From the NCBI GenBank assembly GCA_900168235.1, contig FUZG01000004.1:310001-374000 (forward strand): 64,000 nt of DNA. The letters are read 5' to 3'. Position numbers and translations under genes: made by a program. The notes under the pieces were generated by a model. It did no database searches. It was not told the origin of the DNA and saw nothing but the letters and a program-made list of their open reading frames with translations. This stretch comes from Lachnospiraceae bacterium. GTDB taxonomy: Bacteria > Bacillota > Clostridia > Lachnospirales > Lachnospiraceae. Below are positions 45,923-57,701 of this stretch, piece by piece (the stretch's first letter is position 1; every line of letters begins with the position of its first letter).

Positions 45923-48346
45923 TTACTTTTTAACCATGAAATCAGCAACGAATGCCTTTGCCTCTTCCTCAGTCATTCCCTTTGAGTTCACGAGCTGGTC
46001 CTCATACCACTGGTATGCAGGCTCAGCCGCAGACTTAAAGGATTCAGAATCCATTTCATCCCTGTCTGTAACTTCCAGAACACCGCTCTGCTTCCACTTA
46101 TTGATGAGCTCATCAACCTTTGCTCTGTTTACAGCCTTCTGATACTCTGCTGCCTTTCTCGCATTTTCATCGATGACAGCCTTCTGCTCGTCAGTGAACT
46201 TATCATATGCCTTCTTATTGATGCAAAGGAAGATGCAGTCATAGTAACCGTTCCATGCAGACAGATACTTCTGAACATCCTGAACAGATGCAGAATCGAT
46301 GGATGTCTCCGGATTTTCCTGTCCATCCATTGTGCCCTGCTGGAGCGCTGTATAGGTCTCAGCCCAGTTCATGGCAGATGCATCACATCCCCAGAGGCTG
46401 TAAACCTGCGCACAGAGGTCATTTGAACAGATTCGCATCTTGATATCTTTCAGGTCGGATACAGTCTTGATCGGATGCTTGGAATTAGTGATCTGACGGA
46501 AACCGTTGTCACCGATACCCTCACATACAACACCGTACTCATCGAGGATGGACTTCAAATCCTCTCCGCCTGCTCCATTCATAACTGTGTCGATATCATC
46601 GTAATCCTCGAAAAGATACGGCAGTGAAACTACGTTAAATCTGGGATCAAAGTTTGCGTAGATAAGGTTTGAATGGAATGAAACCTGCAGTGTATCACCG
46701 TCCATAAGAGCCTGGATACCTGCAACCTGATCTCCGTTTGTGAGCTGCTCACCCGGATAAACGTCAACCTTTACCTTACCGCCTGTGGACTGCTGCATAA
46801 GAGCGTTAAAGTAATAACCTGCCTGAGCCCAGGTACTTGCTTCTCCTGTTGAGCAGTCAAAATTCCATGTTGTATCCTGCCACTCATCGTTTCCTGTATA
46901 AATAGCTGCGTTCAGCATAGCGTCATACTCATCTGAGTGGTCATAATCGTGATAAGTAAGACCGCCTTCGGACAACATCTGTGCTGCTTCGCCCTTGTAC
47001 TCCTCTGCCTTTACAAAAACAAGACTGGTCTTCGGAACATAGGTAATAAGAAGAAGTACTGCAAGACACGCTGCGATCATAGGCATAACTGCCTTTGAGA
47101 TCATAGGAAGTGTCACGCGGATATACTGCTTTGCACCGCCGAGTGCTTTCTTTGCAGTATCCTCGATCTTGAGTCCCATAGCAACGAACAGGTTTACACC
47201 TACAGGAGGAGTTACCTGACCGATAGCGAGGTTTACTGTAGCAACCACACCAAATGCAACCAGATTGTAGCCAAGGCTCTGTGCTACAGGTGCCATGATG
47301 GGGATAAAAATGTACATTGCTGAGTTAGCATCGATAAAGAATCCTGCAATGAGAAGGATGATATTTACAACCAACAGGAATACTATCTTATTTGAACCAA
47401 TGGCTGTGAGAAGCGCCTGTGCAGCTTCTGAAATACCAAAAAGTGTACAGCAGTATGAAAACAGTGATGCTGAAGCAACGATCAGCATGATACCGCCGGA
47501 TGTCTTTGCCGAATCAACAAAAATATGGAAGAGATCCTTAAGTGTAACATCACGATAGATAAATACAGCAACGATGATTCCATAAACTACGGAAACTGCA
47601 GCAGCCTCTGTAGGTGTAAAGATAGCGCCATAGATACCGCCAAGGATGATAACGGGCATCAGCAGTCCCCAGATAGCATCCTTAAAGCTTGCCCAGAGTT
47701 CCTTTGCACTTCTCTTTTCGTGAGCAGGCTCGATACCCTTTTTACGGGCTTCGATATAAACAACCAGACAAAGAACCGCACCCATTAAGATACCGGGAAT
47801 GATACCTGCCATGAAGAGAGCGCCAACGCTCTGTCCAACGATGGATGCATATACAACGAATGCGATGGACGGCGGGATAACGATGGCAATGGAGCTGGAA
47901 GCAGCCATGAGCGCCTCAGCAAACGCAGGTGAGAAACCTGACGCGATCATTGCGGGGATAAGAACCGCACCGAGCGCTGCAACTGTTGCCGGACCTGAAC
48001 CGGAGATAGCTCCGAAGAAGCAGGAAACGATTACACATACGATAGCCATTCCGCCTCTTGTGTGTCCTACAAGGTCATCTATAAAACGAACCAGTCTGTC
48101 CGAGATACCTGCCTTCGCCATGATATTTCCGGAAAGAACAAAGAACGGGATCGCGAGGAGCAGGAACTTTGCGATTCCTGTGTATGTATTTGTCGCGATC
48201 ATTGAAAGTGTCAGTGTAGAAAACTGCGGATCAAACATGGATGCGTAAAGGATCGCAAGTGCACTGCTTGCACCGAGACAGATAGCGATCGGCACTCCGA
48301 TGATCAGCATTATGAAAAATGAAACGAAAAGGATTGCTGTTATCAT
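45923..48346 (-). CDS. dctM: TRAP transporter large membrane subunit fused to its solute-binding protein (DctM-DctP)
   Basis: One uninterrupted 807-residue frame. Residues 1-442 are DctM: 12 or so spans, with the family loops AIPFFVLSGNIM (65-76), SGSGPATVAA (115-124), MAASSSIAIVIPPSI (147-161) and GQVTPPVGVNLFVAMG (376-391). The last span (420-436) is followed by an acidic linker (about 443-490). From 490 the sequence is a DctP-type binding protein: YFNALMQQSTGGKV, DGDTLQVSFHS, LPYLFEDY, the carboxylate-binding arginine region DIKMRIC (R638), and YTALQQGTMDGQENP. It has no signal peptide of its own, so the last DctM span anchors it outside. It overlaps dctQ by four bases. The substrate, probably an organic acid, is unknown. 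Confidence 0.92.
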   Translation of the reverse strand: MITAILFVSFFIMLIIGVPIAICLGASSALAILYASMFDPQFSTLTLSMIATNTYTGIAKFLLLAIPFFVLSGNIMAKAGISDRLVRFIDDLVGHTRGGMAIVCVIVSCFFGAISGSGPATVAALGAVLIPAMIASGFSPAFAEALMAASSSIAIVIPPSIAFVVYASIVGQSVGALFMAGIIPGILMGAVLCLVVYIEARKKGIEPAHEKRSAKELWASFKDAIWGLLMPVIILGGIYGAIFTPTEAAAVSVVYGIIVAVFIYRDVTLKDLFHIFVDSAKTSGGIMLIVASASLFSYCCTLFGISEAAQALLTAIGSNKIVFLLVVNIILLIAGFFIDANSAMYIFIPIMAPVAQSLGYNLVAFGVVATVNLAIGQVTPPVGVNLFVAMGLKIEDTAKKALGGAKQYIRVTLPMISKAVMPMIAACLAVLLLITYVPKTSLVFVKAEEYKGEAAQMLSEGGLTYHDYDHSDEYDAMLNAAIYTGNDEWQDTTWNFDCSTGEASTWAQAGYYFNALMQQSTGGKVKVDVYPGEQLTNGDQVAGIQALMDGDTLQVSFHSNLIYANFDPRFNVVSLPYLFEDYDDIDTVMNGAGGEDLKSILDEYGVVCEGIGDNGFRQITNSKHPIKTVSDLKDIKMRICSNDLCAQVYSLWGCDASAMNWAETYTALQQGTMDGQENPETSIDSASVQDVQKYLSAWNGYYDCIFLCINKKAYDKFTDEQKAVIDENARKAAEYQKAVNRAKVDELINKWKQSGVLEVTDRDEMDSESFKSAAEPAYQWYEDQLVNSKGMTEEEAKAFVADFMVKK

Positions 48347-48852
48347 GCTGCTTCACCCTCCCCTTCATTTATTTCTTCTGTGACTTCGCGAAAATTATGC
48401 TCTACAAAATTTTCAACGAAATGAAGTGCGAGGGAAATGCCTCCCACTACGATAAATGCCCAGAAAATTGACTTTGCGATGTGAAGGATAGGGCTGTATG
48501 TTCCGTCTGTGAACATTCTGCCTGCTCCCTGATATACCAGCACGAGACTGTATACCACTCCAACCAGCATCTGCAGGAAATGAAGAACCTTCTTACCTTT
48601 TTCTCCCATAGCATCCTGCAGGATACTAAGCTGTACGAGTTCTCCATTTCTCGCAGCAGCGCCTGCCGCCAGCATTGAAATCAGTACAAACACTGCCACG
48701 GTGATCTCTTCTGTGAAACCCCATGAATGGTGAAAAATCTTTCTCGCAATAACATTACCGAAGGTCAATACAAGAACCAACAGCATAGAAAGCGCAAGAA
48801 CAACATTTTCAATCCGTACTACAATTTGCATGATCTTTTTGTATGCTTTCAT
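48343..48852 (-). CDS. dctQ: TRAP transporter small membrane subunit DctQ
   Basis: A 169-residue protein with four membrane spans and the family segment FHHSWGFTEEITVAVFVLISMLAAG-like (about 38-60), an amphipathic RNGELVQLSIL, and a charged acidic C-terminus. Its stop overlaps the start of the DctM-DctP gene (ATGA), so the three functions come from two translationally coupled genes. Confidence 0.9.
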   Translation of the reverse strand: MKAYKKIMQIVVRIENVVLALSMLLVLVLTFGNVIARKIFHHSWGFTEEITVAVFVLISMLAAGAAARNGELVQLSILQDAMGEKGKKVLHFLQMLVGVVYSLVLVYQGAGRMFTDGTYSPILHIAKSIFWAFIVVGGISLALHFVENFVEHNFREVTEEINEGEGEAA

Positions 48853-51342: not shown

Positions 51343-52293
51343 TTAGTTCACCTGAACATTATCACCATTTTGGTCTACCACAAAACCATGTCCGTCAGAA
51401 TCGAGATCCTTCACAAAAAGGGCTGACTGATGAACCTGCTTTCCATCCACTATCAGAGCCACATGTCCTTCAATTCCCTTCTCTGCATCATCCTCTCCAA
51501 AATTTGCCAGAGCATCGCAGATCTTATTATAGGGATTTTTCCATTTGCCGTTTGCATCGGGCTTGTCACCGTGGGCTATGGACAGATATTTGCCCCTGTT
51601 ATTTGCATGCATCTCATAATCTCTCGGGATGCACTCCAGATCATGGTTCTTTCCAAGCTCATAGATTTCCATGATCTTTTCTATATTCTCAGGAGTCTTA
51701 TTGCTTGCATTTTTCCAGCCGTTAGCTTCCCATTTTTTATATCTGGGCTCATCAGGGAAATTATTTGCAAATCCGCTGTAGACGTAGACACTATCTGTCA
51801 TGAAGTACACTTTTTTGCCGTCAGGAACCCTTTTAAGTCCCTCGATGGCGCCCTGAAGCTCCATCTGATTATTTGTAGCGCCGACAGCTGATCCGTAGCC
51901 TTCCGCTACTATATTATGGTCACGATCTACGATCACATAGCCGTAACCGCTCATCTTACCCTTCTTACTCTGATTTCCTCTGGCACCTCCGTCAGAATGA
52001 ACTTCGTAATACTCACCGTCAAAATCAGGCTTAAAGTCCTTATGCACGATGCTCTCCGCTTTCTTTGCAGCTGCTGCGGCAACAGAAGACTTTGCATCAT
52101 ACACCTCATTTGACGACTTGTATCGGGCAGCATAACCTGCATCCTGCTTTGCAAAAGCCTCTTCTGCCTCTGCCATGGAACTGTATCCGCGAAAAACAGG
52201 TCCCGAAAATCCATCCACCTGAGCCTTGCACTCTGCCCATGTTTTATAGATTCCGGGCTTTCTGCCCTTAAAAACAACATATGCTTTTTTCAT
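51343..52293 (-). CDS. rnhA: Ribonuclease HI with N-terminal viroplasmin (hybrid-binding) domain
   Basis: It cleaves RNA in RNA-DNA hybrids. The N-terminal 45 residues (AYVVFKGRKPGIYKTWAEC) are the caulimovirus viroplasmin-type hybrid-binding domain. The catalytic domain has D101 in HSDGGARGN, E145 in NNQMELQGAI, D167 in MTDSVYVYSG and D260 in NKICDALANFG, so the DEDD set is complete. The stretch between the active-site histidine region and D260 is longer than usual, and a 45-residue C-terminal extension (GHVALIVDGKQVH) is unassigned. It follows pilT by eight bases, so it is probably co-transcribed with the pilus-like operon. Confidence 0.93.
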   Translation of the reverse strand: MKKAYVVFKGRKPGIYKTWAECKAQVDGFSGPVFRGYSSMAEAEEAFAKQDAGYAARYKSSNEVYDAKSSVAAAAAKKAESIVHKDFKPDFDGEYYEVHSDGGARGNQSKKGKMSGYGYVIVDRDHNIVAEGYGSAVGATNNQMELQGAIEGLKRVPDGKKVYFMTDSVYVYSGFANNFPDEPRYKKWEANGWKNASNKTPENIEKIMEIYELGKNHDLECIPRDYEMHANNRGKYLSIAHGDKPDANGKWKNPYNKICDALANFGEDDAEKGIEGHVALIVDGKQVHQSALFVKDLDSDGHGFVVDQNGDNVQVN

Positions 52294-52301
52294 GTAAATA
52301 A

Positions 52302-53351
52302 TTATCTCCTAAGTCTCAGTCTCTCAGGATGTACAGCAAAGCGCTGGGCAGTTTCCTCAGTGATCCTGCCTTCTTCAAGAAGCTTTACAATACTTTCATC
52401 CATAGAAACCATATTTTCGTCAGGACTGGAATAAATAACACCATCCAGCTGATGAACCTTTCCGTCACGGATCATATTTCTGATAGCGGGATTCATGGTC
52501 ATTATCTCAAATGCCGGGATCACGCCTCCGTCCGTGGACGGTAAGAGCTGCTGTGAAACAACAGCGTTAAGGACCGATGACAGCTGTACAGCAACCTGTC
52601 TCTGCTGATTTGCAGGATATACGTCAATGATACGGTTGATGGTATTTGCCGCACCCATAGTATGCAGAGTCGACAGGAGCAGATGTCCTGTTTCTGCTGC
52701 TGTCATAGCAACGGATATAGTCTCAAAATCACGCATCTCACCTAAGAGAATGACCTGCGGACACTGACGGAGCGCAGCTCGAAGACCCGTAACATAACTA
52801 TCGGTATCTACACGGATCTCTCTCTGGCTCACGATACTCTTATTGTGACGGTGCAGGTATTCGATAGGGTCCTCAAGAGTGATAACATGTGATTCTTTTG
52901 TACGGTTAATGTGATCGATCATGCAGGCAAGTGTTGATGATTTACCTGATCCTGCAGGACCTGTAACAAGGACCATTCCGTTTGGCTGCTCACATAGCTT
53001 AACGATCTTTTCCGGGATATTATACGTCTCCGGGTCAGGAAGCGCAAAGGAAATAACTCGGAGAACCGCAGACATAGAGCCTCTCTGCTTGTATCCGCTC
53101 ACACGAAATCTTGAAAGTCCGCCTACTGACAGGGAGAAATCGTCATCACCTCTGCTTGTAAGGATAGAGATATCTCTTCCCGCAAGCTCATAGATCTCCT
53201 TTACATTCTGCTCGACTTCCGCAGGTGACAGACCTTTTTCACCTTCTCTGATGATCACTCCGTTTTTATAAAAAGAAACAGGCCGTCCTGCAACGATGAA
53301 AATATCAGCTGCATTTTTTTCAACTGCAAGTTTTAATATGTCCTTAACCAT
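52302..53351 (-). CDS. pilT: PilT-type retraction ATPase
   Basis: A hexameric secretion ATPase of the type IV pilus superfamily, 349 residues. N-terminal PAS-like domain 1-110. Walker A GPAGSGKSS at 131-139, Asp box TLEDPIEY at 158-165, Walker B VILLGEMRD at 200-208, His box HLLLSTLH at 223-230. AIRNMIRD at 289-296 is the PilT-specific AIRNLIRE-type motif needed for retraction, so it is a PilT rather than a PilB/GspE. Only this ATPase is in the operon. It follows the last small pilin-like gene by five bases. Confidence 0.94.
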   Translation of the reverse strand: MVKDILKLAVEKNAADIFIVAGRPVSFYKNGVIIREGEKGLSPAEVEQNVKEIYELAGRDISILTSRGDDDFSLSVGGLSRFRVSGYKQRGSMSAVLRVISFALPDPETYNIPEKIVKLCEQPNGMVLVTGPAGSGKSSTLACMIDHINRTKESHVITLEDPIEYLHRHNKSIVSQREIRVDTDSYVTGLRAALRQCPQVILLGEMRDFETISVAMTAAETGHLLLSTLHTMGAANTINRIIDVYPANQQRQVAVQLSSVLNAVVSQQLLPSTDGGVIPAFEIMTMNPAIRNMIRDGKVHQLDGVIYSSPDENMVSMDESIVKLLEEGRITEETAQRFAVHPERLRLRR

Positions 53352-53356
53352 TCCCT

Positions 53357-53782
53357 TTATTCTCCTCCAGGTGCAACAGGTCCCTGCGGACCTGCCATAC
53401 TATCTCCCTCTGACAGGTCTGCCCCTTCTGACAGCGAATCCGGTGCTTCCCAGCCCGAAGTCTCTGCGACCTGCCATCTGATGATCCTGTATCCTTTTCC
53501 TGTTTCGTCAGGTTCTATCGTGACTTCCAGATTTTCCATCGCAACACCAAAAGGAACCGATATAGTAGTCTGCCCCTCAGGTATTTCCTCCAGCGCTGCC
53601 AGCTCTTCCTCCGCCTGATTACAGGCGTTCTGATAATCAAGTACCCTCTTTTCTACCTGATCACTGACCTTCAGACTGCTCCGCGCGATGGAGTAAGAGA
53701 TACCGCTGAATGAAAATAAGCAGATACTCATGAAAACAACCACTAGCATAGGAAGTCCGATGGATGCCGGTGTCTTACCCAT
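53357..53782 (-). CDS. Small single-span protein of the pilus-like operon, Pro/Gly-rich tail
   Basis: A 141-residue protein with one N-terminal span (about 9-29), a heptad-like helix (residues 33-65, VEKRVLDYQNACNQAEEELAAL) and a strand region (VPFGVAMENLEVTIEPDE). The last 25 residues are acidic then Gly/Pro-rich (AGPQGPVAPGG). Its shape is pilin- or assembly-protein-like, but there is no prepilin cleavage motif. Its start overlaps the preceding gene by eight bases. Family not recognised. Confidence 0.65.
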   Translation of the reverse strand: MGKTPASIGLPMLVVVFMSICLFSFSGISYSIARSSLKVSDQVEKRVLDYQNACNQAEEELAALEEIPEGQTTISVPFGVAMENLEVTIEPDETGKGYRIIRWQVAETSGWEAPDSLSEGADLSEGDSMAGPQGPVAPGGE

Positions 53783-54221
53783 CTCCGGAACCTCCTTTCC
53801 TTAATGCATGCTTTATCACCATTGTAAAGACCGGCTCTGTATCCGGTTCTTTACGTCTTTTTTCTGCAACGTAGCTGTTTATCTCTGCGGAATAAAGCCT
53901 GCCGTTCACCGATGGCGTGATCGTCATGCAGAACTTACCGTTATCATAAATTTTTTCATAACTGCCGTTCTCTTGGAGTTCAAATCCGTTCTCCCGGAGA
54001 AATCCGTCTATCTCTGCCTCATCAGAAACAGATCGTATAACTTCCGAAACTGCATCTGCTTCATGCGCTGCACTGGTCTTCGCCTCCGACTCTGCCGATA
54101 TCTCGTATGCTTTACCGAATATCGACATAGTGACCGCAGCCGAGACGCAGAAAAATGCCACGGCAAATATGAGTTCCAGCAGAAGAAGCTGTCCCGATGA
54201 AAGCCTGCTTTTTTCTCTCAT
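53775..54221 (-). CDS. Small pilin-like protein of the pilus-like operon
   Basis: A 148-residue protein. The N-terminus SSGQLLLLELIFAVAFF resembles a prepilin (short basic leader, Gly, hydrophobic helix with a Glu), but the Glu lies at +6 after the glycine instead of +5, so processing is uncertain. The hydrophobic helix (10-31) is followed by an Ala/Glu helix and a strand-rich soluble domain (FELQENGSYEKIYDNGKFCMTITP). It may be a minor-pilin analogue. It overlaps the next gene by eight bases. Confidence 0.65.
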   Translation of the reverse strand: MREKSRLSSGQLLLLELIFAVAFFCVSAAVTMSIFGKAYEISAESEAKTSAAHEADAVSEVIRSVSDEAEIDGFLRENGFELQENGSYEKIYDNGKFCMTITPSVNGRLYSAEINSYVAEKRRKEPDTEPVFTMVIKHALRKGGSGDG

Positions 54222-54226
54222 TCGAC

Positions 54227-54715
54227 CTATTCCCCTTCACTTTTTACGGAAACAACTGCCTCTGATGTACTATTTTCTGCTCCTGTAAAACGGAACTTTA
54301 TGAGATTATCCGACAGCTTTTCCGCACTCATCTCACTTATCTCCAGTATTTCTGTCCCACTGTCCTCATCGCATAACGAAAGGTCTGACTCCGGTGTATA
54401 GAGCTCTCTCAGATATCCGTCATACACATAGATATATGTCACATACGGCACATTTTTAACTTCTTTATCAAGTCTCACTGCCTCGTGCCCCATGAACTCC
54501 GTCAGTTCTATATGCCCCAGTTCGTCATGGCTTCTGAATTTCTCTACCATATATCTGGCAGCGATATCTGTATCCAGCACACTCTCTGCCTGATCGACTA
54601 CTTTTCTGTAAAGTTTCACGGAAAAGACCACAAAGCACAGTACTGAAAGCGTGAAGACAAGAAATAAGATGACAGGAAAAACATCAGAGATACGTGTTCT
54701 CTTTTTTACCATCAC
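54227..54715 (-). CDS. Small single-span protein of the pilus-like operon (DUF4860-like)
   Basis: A 162-residue protein with a basic start (MMVKKRTRISDVFP), one hydrophobic span at about 11-33 and an external strand-rich domain (VPYVTYIYVYDGYLRELYTPES). It reminds me of DUF4860 proteins found in clostridial pilus-like operons, but I hold this loosely. No prepilin motif. It overlaps the previous gene by four bases and precedes the next by five. Confidence 0.65.
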   Translation of the reverse strand: MMVKKRTRISDVFPVILFLVFTLSVLCFVVFSVKLYRKVVDQAESVLDTDIAARYMVEKFRSHDELGHIELTEFMGHEAVRLDKEVKNVPYVTYIYVYDGYLRELYTPESDLSLCDEDSGTEILEISEMSAEKLSDNLIKFRFTGAENSTSEAVVSVKSEGE

Positions 54716-55029
54716 TCTTCTCCCGTTTGCCTGACTGTCACGATCGGGGGTATCTTGCTTCCCCGAACCTCATAATCGATCGTGAAAACTTCCTCGTCAT
54801 ATGTTAATCCATAAACTCTCTCAATGTAGTCGAGAGTCTTTGGATAACTTCCCGTCGTTGCATAGCAATACGTGATATCCCGCTGTATCGCCCGCTCAAG
54901 GCTTTCTTTCTGCCTTTCGACACTGCCTTTTTTTGTATATTCCACACTGAGCAATAAAATGACCATAAGAAAAGCGAAGAAAAGAAGCGCTCTTCCTATA
55001 CTGACGCTCTTTTTCTTTTTTTCATTCAT
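54712..55029 (-). CDS. Small single-span protein of the pilus-like operon
   Basis: A 105-residue protein with a Lys-rich N-terminus, one span at about 12-28 and a compact external domain (RAIQRDITYCYATTGSYPKTLDYIERVYGL), a pattern like the helix-plus-small-domain of major pilins (TGSYP is frequent in pseudopilin loops). There is no G-xxxx-E cleavage site. It overlaps both neighbours by four bases, so it is tightly coupled to the PilC-like gene. Confidence 0.65.
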   Translation of the reverse strand: MNEKKKKSVSIGRALLFFAFLMVILLLSVEYTKKGSVERQKESLERAIQRDITYCYATTGSYPKTLDYIERVYGLTYDEEVFTIDYEVRGSKIPPIVTVRQTGEE

Positions 55030-56063
55030 ATCGAAGATACTACCCCCAGAAGCGGAAACATTACCGACAGAAGAATGACGCCTATAACAACTGAAAGTAT
55101 CACAACAAGTGCCGGTTCAATGGTTGCCAGAACGTTATTCATGCTGGTCTCAGCTCTTTTCTGACTCATCTCAGAGATTCTCTCCATTACGGCATCCGAT
55201 TCACCCGTGCGTATTCCTATTGTCATCATTCTCGCCTGCACACCTGACAATATTCCTGAATCACGAAGTGCATCATCGAATCTCTCTCCGTCAGCAAGGC
55301 TCTGCCTGCACTTACTTATCTTTTCAGAAAAACCCCGGTCCTCGATTATTCCTGTTACCATCTCCAGACCGAAGTCTGCCGAAAAGCCTGACTTAAGAGC
55401 AAGAGCTACTCCTCCCGCAAAACGGCTTGTGGAAATATCATTCTGTAAATGCTTAAAAAATGGGAATTTATAAAGAAATGCTGTTCCCATCTGCTTTCCT
55501 TTCTCAGTATGAGTGCAGAAAAGCATGAAAAACACGATGATAATGGTGGCTGCTATGAATACCACTGCATACTGCCTGAGCGCAGTACCAACATTATAGA
55601 GAAATCCTGCTATACCCGTCATCTCAGCACCAAGCTGGCGGAAAACCTGACGGAAAACAGGCATGACCTCGATCAGAAGCAGCAAGATAACGACCAGTAT
55701 CATTCCTGCCATTATTGCAGGATACGTAACTGCCTGCTTTATCGCCTGACGTATCTCCTCTTCTCTCGCATAGTGCCTGCTGAGTGAATCCATGACATTA
55801 TCAAGAGTTCCTGTTTCCTCTCCTATCTGAGCCATCTTTACCACGTAGGGCGGAAAAGCCCCTGTTTTTTCCATAGAAGGTGCCAGATAGTCGCCACCCT
55901 CCAGTCCTTTTAATATGCTGTCATAAAGAGCCTTCTCATTTTCAGACGACTCCGGATCATTTTTCAGCATATAAAGACCCTCGATAGATGAAATTCCTGA
56001 CTTCAGGATCATTGCCATCTGGGCGCAAAAATATGACAGCTTGTCATTATCCAATGTTTTCAT
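55026..56063 (-). CDS. pilC: PilC/GspF-family inner-membrane platform protein
   Basis: The membrane platform of type IV pilus or type II secretion machines. The start at 56063 (MKTLDNDKLSYFCAQMA) has AAGGGG eight bases before it, giving 345 residues; an upstream ATG has no ribosome site. Two T2SSF domains: about 5-130 (FCAQMAMILKSGIS, GEETGTLDNVMDSLS) and 210-335 (RFAGGVALALKSGFS, GIRTGESDAVMERIS). Spans at about 113-133, 166-184 and 316-338. It is shorter than typical PilC (about 400) at the N-terminus. It is the first gene of the operon. Confidence 0.9.
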   Translation of the reverse strand: MKTLDNDKLSYFCAQMAMILKSGISSIEGLYMLKNDPESSENEKALYDSILKGLEGGDYLAPSMEKTGAFPPYVVKMAQIGEETGTLDNVMDSLSRHYAREEEIRQAIKQAVTYPAIMAGMILVVILLLLIEVMPVFRQVFRQLGAEMTGIAGFLYNVGTALRQYAVVFIAATIIIVFFMLFCTHTEKGKQMGTAFLYKFPFFKHLQNDISTSRFAGGVALALKSGFSADFGLEMVTGIIEDRGFSEKISKCRQSLADGERFDDALRDSGILSGVQARMMTIGIRTGESDAVMERISEMSQKRAETSMNNVLATIEPALVVILSVVIGVILLSVMFPLLGVVSSI

Positions 56064-56267
56064 TTTGGGATCCCCTTCATATAAGACGTGACAAAACTTT
56101 CCCCTTTCCCTCATGTCTTTATTTCGTCAACTGTGCCACAAAATATTAGTACTATCTCCTGTTATTTATAAAAAAATTTAACGGCACTGCTATTTTCATC
56201 AAATAATTTATATGTGTCTATTTCTTTGCATAAATATGCTCAATTTATGAATATTTGAATCTTTTTC

Positions 56268-56354: not shown

Positions 56355-57701
56355 ATGAGTAATACGACTAAAAAAACATTGTTTATCGTGCCGTCATTTA
56401 TCGGCATCCTGCTTTTTATGATCCCTGTAAAGTTTGGCGGAAGCTGGACGGTCATCGTAAAGATCATCGCTGACATGATCTCCGGCGCTGTGGGCAGTTT
56501 CCTGCCGATCCTGTGCCTTGGGATCCTTTCTGTTTCTGCGGTAATGTCGATCCTTGCACAGACCCGCATCAATATTTTCTGGCACAACAAGATCCTGCGC
56601 GAAACATTCCTCACAAGCCCGTTCTGGACCATCGTCCGTGTGGCTGGATGCATCCTCGCATGGATCACATACCTGGACCGTGATACAGGCAGGTACCCTG
56701 TGATCTCAGGCGCAGATCAGGGAAGCTTTATCCTGAATGACCTTCTCTGCACACTCGTTATCATATTTGCTATCGCAGGTCTTCTCCTGCCTCTGCTTTT
56801 AGATTTCGGTCTGCTGGAATTTATCGGTGCCATCACTACAAAATACATGCGCCCGCTCTTTACCGTCCCCGGCCGTGCGGCAGTTGACTGCATCACTTCC
56901 TGGATCGGTGACGGAACACTCGGCGTCATGCTCACATGCAACCAGTTTGAGAGCGGATACTATTCCGAGCGTGAAGCCGCAGTCATCGCTACTACTTTTT
57001 CTGCGGTTTCCATCACATTCAGCCTCGTAGTTCTCGATCAGGTCGGACTCGTGGAAATGTTTGGTATCTACTATCTGATAATCGTGCTCGTCGGTATCGT
57101 CTGCGCCCTTATCTGCCCGAGGATACCACCTCTTAGCCGTAAAAAAGACCGTTACTTCGTTGAAGGAAAACACATGCCGGAAAACATCCCCGAGGAATAC
57201 AGCAGTTCCGCAAAGTACGGAATGAAGCTCGCTATGGACAGAGTTTCCGAACACAAGGGAATCGGTGAATTTCTGACAAACGGCCTCATAAACTCTGCAA
57301 AAATGTGGTTCGGAGTGCTCCCGACTGTTATGTGCATCGGTACGATAGCTCTTGTTATCGCAAATTACACTCCGGTTTTTGAATGGATGGGCATACCTTT
57401 CAGACCGCTCATGTATCTCCTGCAGGTGCCTGATGCAAATGCCGCAGCTTCCACAATTATCGTTGGTTTTGTAGATATGTTCACGCCATCGATCCTTATA
57501 GCAGGTGCAGGCGCATCCGCCATGACGCGTTTCATCATCGCGGTCGTGTCAGTGACACAGGTACTTTATATCTCAGAAATAGGAGGACTTATCCTCGCAT
57601 CAAAGCTCCCGGTAAGTCTCCTTGAAATGTTCCTTATATTCCTTGAAAGGACTGTGATTTCACTCGTTATCGTATGTCCGATAGCGCATCTTTTGTTTTG
57701 A
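56355..57701 (+). CDS. YjiH-family (nucleoside-recognition/Gate domain) membrane protein
   Basis: A 448-residue membrane protein with about ten spans. It fits the YjiH family: FIVPSFIGILLFMIPVKFGG at the N-terminus, then Gate-domain blocks with SWIGDGTLGVMLTCNQFESGYYSEREA (about 180-205) and PDANAAASTIIVGFVDMFTPSIL (about 358-380). The transported molecule is unknown; related Gate proteins include nucleoside carriers and spore maturation proteins. It is monocistronic. Confidence 0.85.
   Translation: MSNTTKKTLFIVPSFIGILLFMIPVKFGGSWTVIVKIIADMISGAVGSFLPILCLGILSVSAVMSILAQTRINIFWHNKILRETFLTSPFWTIVRVAGCILAWITYLDRDTGRYPVISGADQGSFILNDLLCTLVIIFAIAGLLLPLLLDFGLLEFIGAITTKYMRPLFTVPGRAAVDCITSWIGDGTLGVMLTCNQFESGYYSEREAAVIATTFSAVSITFSLVVLDQVGLVEMFGIYYLIIVLVGIVCALICPRIPPLSRKKDRYFVEGKHMPENIPEEYSSSAKYGMKLAMDRVSEHKGIGEFLTNGLINSAKMWFGVLPTVMCIGTIALVIANYTPVFEWMGIPFRPLMYLLQVPDANAAASTIIVGFVDMFTPSILIAGAGASAMTRFIIAVVSVTQVLYISEIGGLILASKLPVSLLEMFLIFLERTVISLVIVCPIAHLLF

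Follow-up and report, generated by a model that had tools for sequence, protein, structure and literature searches.

In the type IV filament superfamily, pilins, a peptidase, an extension ATPase and a platform are described as present in every system (PMC10191384), and a survey chose PilB as its marker on the ground that no family can do without assembly (PMC6668835). PilT is reported to be dispensable for piliation in monoderm pili (PMC6916266) and to be required if the MSHA pilus of Vibrio is to extend (PMC9815625), and in Tad pili the CpaF ATPase is described as bifunctional (PMC12019362). The subject here is a six-gene cassette on a 64,000-nt stretch of contig FUZG01000004.1 from a Lachnospiraceae bacterium, called the window below. 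The genes for a platform protein (PilC), four small proteins (s1 to s4) and a PilT-type ATPase follow one another in that order on the minus strand, at window positions 52302-56063. That the cassette is PilT-only is confirmed.

The cassette resembles several described machines in part. Like the Com pilus encoded by the comG operon of Bacillus and Streptococcus, it combines a short platform, pilin-class proteins and one short ATPase, and it does without MNO genes (there is no PilM, PilN or PilO in the cassette, and no genome-wide search for them was made). Unlike the Com pilus, its motor is of the PilT type and not a ComGA (131 bits against model NF041000, with a cut-off of 300), its genes are ordered PilC-s1-s2-s3-s4-PilT, its own genome gives no A24_N-type peptidase match, and most relatives add a transglutaminase-like partner. 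As in the type II pseudopilus (GspGHIJK, with GspF and GspE), s2 has a GspJ-like predicted fold, and the N-termini of s3 and s4 are like those of GspI and GspK by pattern; the lipoprotein-like partner is also reminiscent of pullulanase. In contrast to type II secretion, the cassette has no secretin and no GspE-class ATPase was found: the cassette PilT scores 126 bits against the GspE model TIGR02533 (cut-off 630), and its genome holds no other candidate. A PilC and a bona fide PilT are shared with the type IVa pilus, which uses PilB, PilT and PilD, but searches of this genome gave no gene for PilB, a PilD-type peptidase or an N_methyl pilin. One ATPase per machine is a property of the Tad pilus with its bifunctional CpaF, but CpaF and TadB/C are of other families and lie at a separate locus here. 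Because an extension ATPase of the PilB, GspE, ComGA or TadA class was looked for in the genome, and none was found except the CpaF of that Tad locus, the cassette is a PilT-only variant within the superfamily that falls outside the named branches as they are normally defined.

Among the papers listed from the open-licence PMC literature, covered by titles and the starts of abstracts, there was no description of the cassette, no paper on DUF4860 (the family of s2) and no paper that joins a transglutaminase to a type IV pilus, PilT or PilC operon. Papers found for Lachnospiraceae together with type IV pili, PilT or PilB were off-topic by title, and those on systems reported to lack PilB had nothing on this cassette in their titles and abstract starts.

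The motor and its distribution

The cassette PilT (52302..53351, minus strand) reaches 399.9 bits against TIGR01420, for which the cut-off is 319.1, and so belongs to the PilT family; it scores 120 bits against the PilB model, where 676 are required. The closest solved chain is a PilT of Aquifex, 2gsz, at 305 bits, and PilB chains score 80-96 bits. The retraction motif named in the original prediction, which was made from the letters of the window, is present as PAIRNMIRD, and the Walker A and Walker B patterns are intact. Both Walker patterns occur in all 32 cassette PilTs examined, the window's included; by strict patterns, 27 carry the AIRNLIR-type retraction motif and 27 the His box. In a tree of 75 ATPases, which has no ComGA row and a bootstrap that is not fully settled, the 32 cassette PilTs group into a single clade that falls with the other PilTs (support 100/99), and eight PilBs form a separate clade (100/100). 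Nine PilTs that seem to stand in for a missing cassette copy group among the PilTs of other loci. Fourteen rows of this tree are labelled comM, one of which (L110, genome G196) has different neighbours, and the label "pilus-locus PilT" was assigned by exclusion.

The same genome (3.79 Mb, 99.93% complete) contains three T2SSE genes: the cassette pilT, the cpaF of the Tad-type locus and, on contig 24, a pilT paralogue that is degenerate (L010 8709-9770). The paralogue keeps Walker A, its Walker B and His-box patterns are missing, and its branch in the tree is very long (2.18); it is unlikely to work as a motor and may be a pseudo-ATPase. It lies in the order hemW, a GGDEF/EAL-like gene, an HD-domain gene, pilT, comM, dprA and topA, where hemW, the GGDEF/EAL gene, dprA and topA were identified by eye. 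The cassette PilT is the only intact PilT/PilB-class ATPase found genome-wide, the Tad CpaF aside, and the original observation of PilT as the only ATPase of the operon stands. T2SSF genes are limited to the cassette pilC and two Tad genes. Two short A24 peptidase genes were found, one at either end of the Tad-type locus (L011 6027-13894, contig 17). The genome has no match to PilB (PF00437 with MshEN) or to a PilD-type peptidase (A24_N), and none to N_methyl pilins at E<=1 in a search whose control was positive in 10 of 14 genomes; no type IVa major pilin, defined by N_methyl and a G|FTLIE signal, was thus found. The absence of PilB and of a recognisable major pilin first read from the window extends to the genome, as does that of a PilD-type peptidase, and the complete pilB-pilD-pilA locus that might have paired with the cassette was not found.

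The survey covered 250 genomes of the family, this one included, at about one per genus, with DUF4860 as marker of the cassette, MshEN as the PilB N-domain and A24_N as the PilD N-domain. DUF4860 occurs in 86 genomes, MshEN in 106 and A24_N in 93. MshEN is present in 35 of the 86 cassette genomes and 71 of the 164 others, so that the two are independent (odds ratio 0.90, p 0.79). MshEN and A24_N, by contrast, are strongly associated, with 86 genomes carrying both (odds ratio 84 and p 2e-38); 49 genomes with DUF4860 have neither. A search for the PilT family (TIGR01420, E<=1e-25) in the 51 cassette genomes without MshEN gave a match in 50, including 40 of 40 of high quality, and exactly one match in 45. 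Two matches were found in G000, where the second is degenerate, in G096 and G203, each with a second PilT, in G224, whose second scores 283 bits, below the cut-off, and in G048, where a match of 158 bits is PilB-like. In total, 49 genomes, this one included and 39 of the 40 of high quality among them, have PilT and nothing PilB-like at E<=1e-25. In six genomes that have MshEN but lack a strong PilT (G019, G064, G151, G172, G211 and G240), TIGR01420 gave matches of 3.6e-46 to 1.7e-54, presumably to their PilBs, so the search does detect PilBs. A degenerate PilB could slip past the limit, since G062, whose MshEN match is below the family cut-off with a stop inside, reaches just 1.4e-19 with TIGR01420.

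PilT lies within 6 kb of DUF4860 in 41 of the 51 genomes and only elsewhere in nine. The neighbours of these nine outside PilTs, named by eye from the copies in this genome, are comM-like in six (L100, L107, L111, L116, L139 and L141), hemW-like in two (L103 and L140) and HD-GYP-like in one (L142). The hemW, HD-GYP, pilT and comM neighbourhood, with gene names again by eye, recurs in family genomes, at the six comM-like loci and also at L109, L113 and L122, whose genomes lack DUF4860.

Platform, subunits and gene order

PilC (55026..56063, minus strand) is a short form of about 345 aa with a T2SSF match at 1.1e-37, which makes it a GspF/PilC-type platform of the superfamily. Its NCBIfam scores (1.1e-55 for GspF, TIGR02120, and 1.7e-34 for ComGB) are all under the curated cut-offs. 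A longer alternative start lies at 56114; judged by eye, the ATG at 56063 comes with a good ribosome site.

The four small proteins, all on the minus strand, each have a single helix. No recognisable cleavage site was found across 108 aligned sequences of s1 (54712..55029, 105 aa) or 109 of s2 (54227..54712, 161 aa, DUF4860). The predicted folds of both are of the pilin class, from matches given by VIA re-alignment of the models, and that of s2 is GspJ-like, which gives the cassette the pilin-fold subunits of the superfamily; with Foldseek alone, neither model had a match below E 0.001. The N-terminus of s3 (53775..54221, 148 aa) is like that of GspI and PilV. Glu at +5 is kept in all 103 aligned relatives, the window's copy included, and position -1 is G, S or A in 76 of them. 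The other 27 have R, N, H, K, W, Q, D or F there, and the window's own s3 has Q. This residue shows no clear difference with PilD: it is G, S or A in 12 of 15 PilD-positive and 15 of 20 PilD-negative genomes. In s4 (53357..53782, 141 aa) Gly at -1 is invariant (106 of 106) and Glu5 is absent, which is the pattern of GspK and PilX. The original prediction that no small protein has a correct prepilin site holds for the letters of the window, but the relatives of s3 and s4 retain parts of the signal.

A search of the PDB with the s3 profile returned type IV pilins in three of four rows, weakly (E 0.89-1.5), and nothing relevant among solved chains was found for the s1 and s4 profiles. Pfam gave no consistent match over 41, 35 and 36 members of s1, s3 and s4; one PilX_N and one TadE match among the 36 s4 members, each at 0.026, are too weak to count as evidence. 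Taken together, s1 to s4 resemble a set of GspG/H, GspJ, GspI and GspK type, that is, a pseudopilus tip or a very short pseudopilus.

The six genes are in tight series, as originally described, with junctions of 1 to 8 bases and not 4 to 8: a 4-base overlap, a 1-base overlap (4 bases if s2 starts at the GTG at 54715), a 5-base gap, an 8-base overlap and a 5-base gap. At 40 loci fetched from 39 of the 86 cassette genomes, and with the window proteins as queries, PilC was recognised at 40, s1 at 40, s2 at 39, s3 at 34, s4 at 37 and PilT at 31, always in the same order. Because this order recurs across the family, the gene cluster is not chance. Of the nine loci without PilT, one is a second cassette copy in G149 and eight are in separate genomes. 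PilT was found elsewhere in the genome for seven of these (G037, G041, G080, G190, G207, G208 and G221) and not found in G137, which is 81% complete. The two copies in G149 (L090 and L091) are about 166 kb apart, and L090 is the one where no PilT was recognised. Among the fetched loci, 15 of 17 MshEN-positive genomes keep PilT in the cassette.

The operon had been drawn from 51343, which takes in an RNase HI gene with a Cauli_VI domain (51343..52293, minus strand; RNase_H 6.5e-14) that starts 8 bases downstream of pilT. No match to it was found at the 40 related loci, and it was therefore rejected as a seventh part of the machine; it is possibly co-transcribed with the cassette. Upstream of the cassette, similar genes at 12 of the 40 loci (for example L086 1576-2577) look sigma-factor-like by eye, and the one member tested had no Pfam match at 0.01. 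The divergent neighbour in the window (56355-57701, plus strand) encodes a nucleoside-recognition (Gate) membrane protein (PF07670, 2.9e-11). Farther away, a single frame of 807 aa (45923-48346, minus strand) joins DctM, a TRAP permease (residues 7-439), to DctP, a solute-binding protein (501-782), and a small gene that is DctQ-like by eye (48343-48852) adjoins this fusion.

A transglutaminase-like partner

The partial prepilin signals of s3 and s4, a transglutaminase-like partner in most relatives and the wide spread of the cassette go beyond the original prediction. A gene on the same strand, within about 120 bases upstream of pilC, occurs at 32 of the 40 fetched loci and encodes a protein that carries the motif GIC and is about 307-387 aa long. 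The transglutaminase core PF01841 was found in the four members tested (2.1e-17 to 3.5e-21), and 27 aligned sequences share an invariant Cys, His and Asp, taken to be the triad. By a simple pattern, 21 of the 32 proteins have a lipobox-like signal.

The partner is found at E<1e-40 in 86 of the 250 genomes, 83 of the 86 with the cassette as against 3 of the 164 others (Fisher p 2e-58), with at most eight candidates scored per genome and with 27 cassette loci having also supplied the query alignment. The cassette genomes without it are the window's own, its genus mate G079 and G052 (84% complete). The three genomes with a partner and no DUF4860 (G024, G127 and G245) match less strongly than almost all the rest, at 9e-52 to 1e-59. 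The window's genome has four PF01841 genes elsewhere, and no transglutaminase of the cassette type was found at E 1e-10 among the 8 of 53 candidates scored; its genus would have dropped or replaced the partner.

Named genomes were scanned with the transglutaminase alignment, as the DUF4860 alignment was too diverse. At least 589 stretches encode a relative of the partner, and 80 were kept. The complete order transglutaminase-PilC-s1-s2-s3-s4-PilT is present at 58 of these; 15 lack only PilT (L214 perhaps being cut short) and seven reach contig ends. Since the 80 loci were picked by the transglutaminase, they test the gene order and not the association with the partner. Record titles include Faecalicatena contorta, Coprococcus comes, Dorea sp. 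and Butyrivibrio hungatei, and further Acetobacterium tundrae, Christensenella hongkongensis and Faecalibacillus intestinalis. As these records include taxa outside the family, the cassette extends past Lachnospiraceae.

Models for a probable one-motor machine

We favour, as probable if not by much, a compact member of the type IV filament superfamily in which a PilT-type hexamer is the sole dedicated motor and serves both strokes. PilC would be the membrane platform and form the core with PilT, and s1 to s4 a membrane-anchored pseudopilus tip or short pseudopilus. PilT would turn PilC in ATP-driven cycles, raising and retracting the pseudopilin complex, and at least s1 and s2 would function uncleaved. 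In most relatives the cargo or tip partner may be the transglutaminase-like protein, mostly with a lipoprotein-like signal. As no extension ATPase was found, either PilT drives both strokes or the complex rises without a motor; the former is favoured because of the precedents of CpaF in Tad and PilT in MSHA. The use of one ATPase for both directions, which we infer, had been proposed from the window together with unprocessed subunits: the single PilT-family match in 45 of 51 genomes and the siteless s1 and s2 are in keeping with this if the subunits are read as largely unprocessed, and the original interpretation is partly supported. The canonical PilTs that appear to stand in for the cassette copy in nine genomes suggest that the platform or the subunits determine direction.

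Several points weigh against this reading. The cassette is known here from its genes, from which motor direction and cargo are deduced. The AIRNMIR retraction motif is kept in most cassette PilTs, and canonical PilTs near hemW, HD-GYP or comM seem to replace the cassette PilT in nine genomes, which points to ordinary PilT action and not to a rebuilt motor. An A24 peptidase of some kind is present in 84 of the 86 cassette genomes, and a CpaF-class ATPase seems to be in nearly all of them, judging by weak TIGR01420 matches in 249 of 250, so that a Tad machine may assist the cassette. The window's own genus lacks the transglutaminase-like partner. The 250 genomes are still related, such that the Fisher values overstate independence, and several of the 51 MshEN-less cassette genomes are incomplete.

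The alternative first proposed, a split type IV pilus in which the cassette is paired with a PilB-PilD-pilin locus elsewhere, is hardly credible. Although the PilB N-domain is present in 35 of the 86 cassette genomes, the cassette is distributed independently of PilB, in contrast to the tight pairing of PilB with PilD, and 49 genomes are PilT-only; with none of the partner genes found, the proposal is refuted for this genome unless a gene sits in assembly gaps. That PilT only retracts, while the Tad CpaF extends via PilC and TadV processes s3 and s4, is distinctly unlikely. Along with CpaF, two A24 peptidases are encoded in the Tad-type locus of this genome, A24 peptidases occur in 247 of 250 genomes, and the residues at -1 of most s3 and all s4 relatives would suit processing. 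However, CpaF normally works with the TadB/TadC pair, the s3 residues other than G, S or A do not track PilD, and G215 (94% complete) has the cassette with no A24 match.

A machine with no extension stroke at all, where s1 to s4 form a static tip-like complex that PilT pulls or rotates as a piston or disassembly device and not a filament, is unlikely. The resemblance of the subunits to tip-type pseudopilins, the missing prepilin signal of s1 and s2, the strict retraction motif of 27 of the 32 cassette PilTs and the apparent ability of canonical PilTs to substitute are consistent with it, but a pulling motor needs a reset step and none was identified. It is very unlikely that these clostridia use the cassette as their Com pilus for DNA uptake, with PilT replacing ComGA. 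The set is comG-like in being minimal, with a short platform, pilin-class proteins and one ATPase without a long N-domain; PilTs outside the cassette often adjoin comM, and the degenerate PilT of this genome adjoins comM and then dprA. Canonical PilTs at comM, however, also occur in genomes without DUF4860 (G120, G156 and G235), and we know of no role for a transglutaminase-like protein in DNA uptake.

The favoured machine with PilT serving both strokes leaves its cargo to be named, and the best candidate is the transglutaminase-like protein, by analogy with type II systems, which secrete lipoproteins such as pullulanase. It is possible, though doubtful, that the cassette represents a separate machine class, in which a PilT-clade motor would drive both strokes on a few pseudopilins that are mostly uncleaved. 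In most members such a machine would serve to position or operate a lipid-anchored enzyme of transglutaminase type across the cell wall, as a monoderm counterpart of type II lipoprotein secretion.

The assembly motor is regarded as universal, and the PilT-only cassette breaks this rule in 49 sampled genomes. The cassette is common in gut clostridia, including the commensals Faecalicatena contorta and Coprococcus comes, whose named records are not part of the PilT-only count, and its presence in named gut commensals makes it open to study. The standing question of which of the two, the ATPase or its platform, fixes motor direction is thereby made testable, and DUF4860 and the transglutaminase-like protein are now tied to a defined machine.

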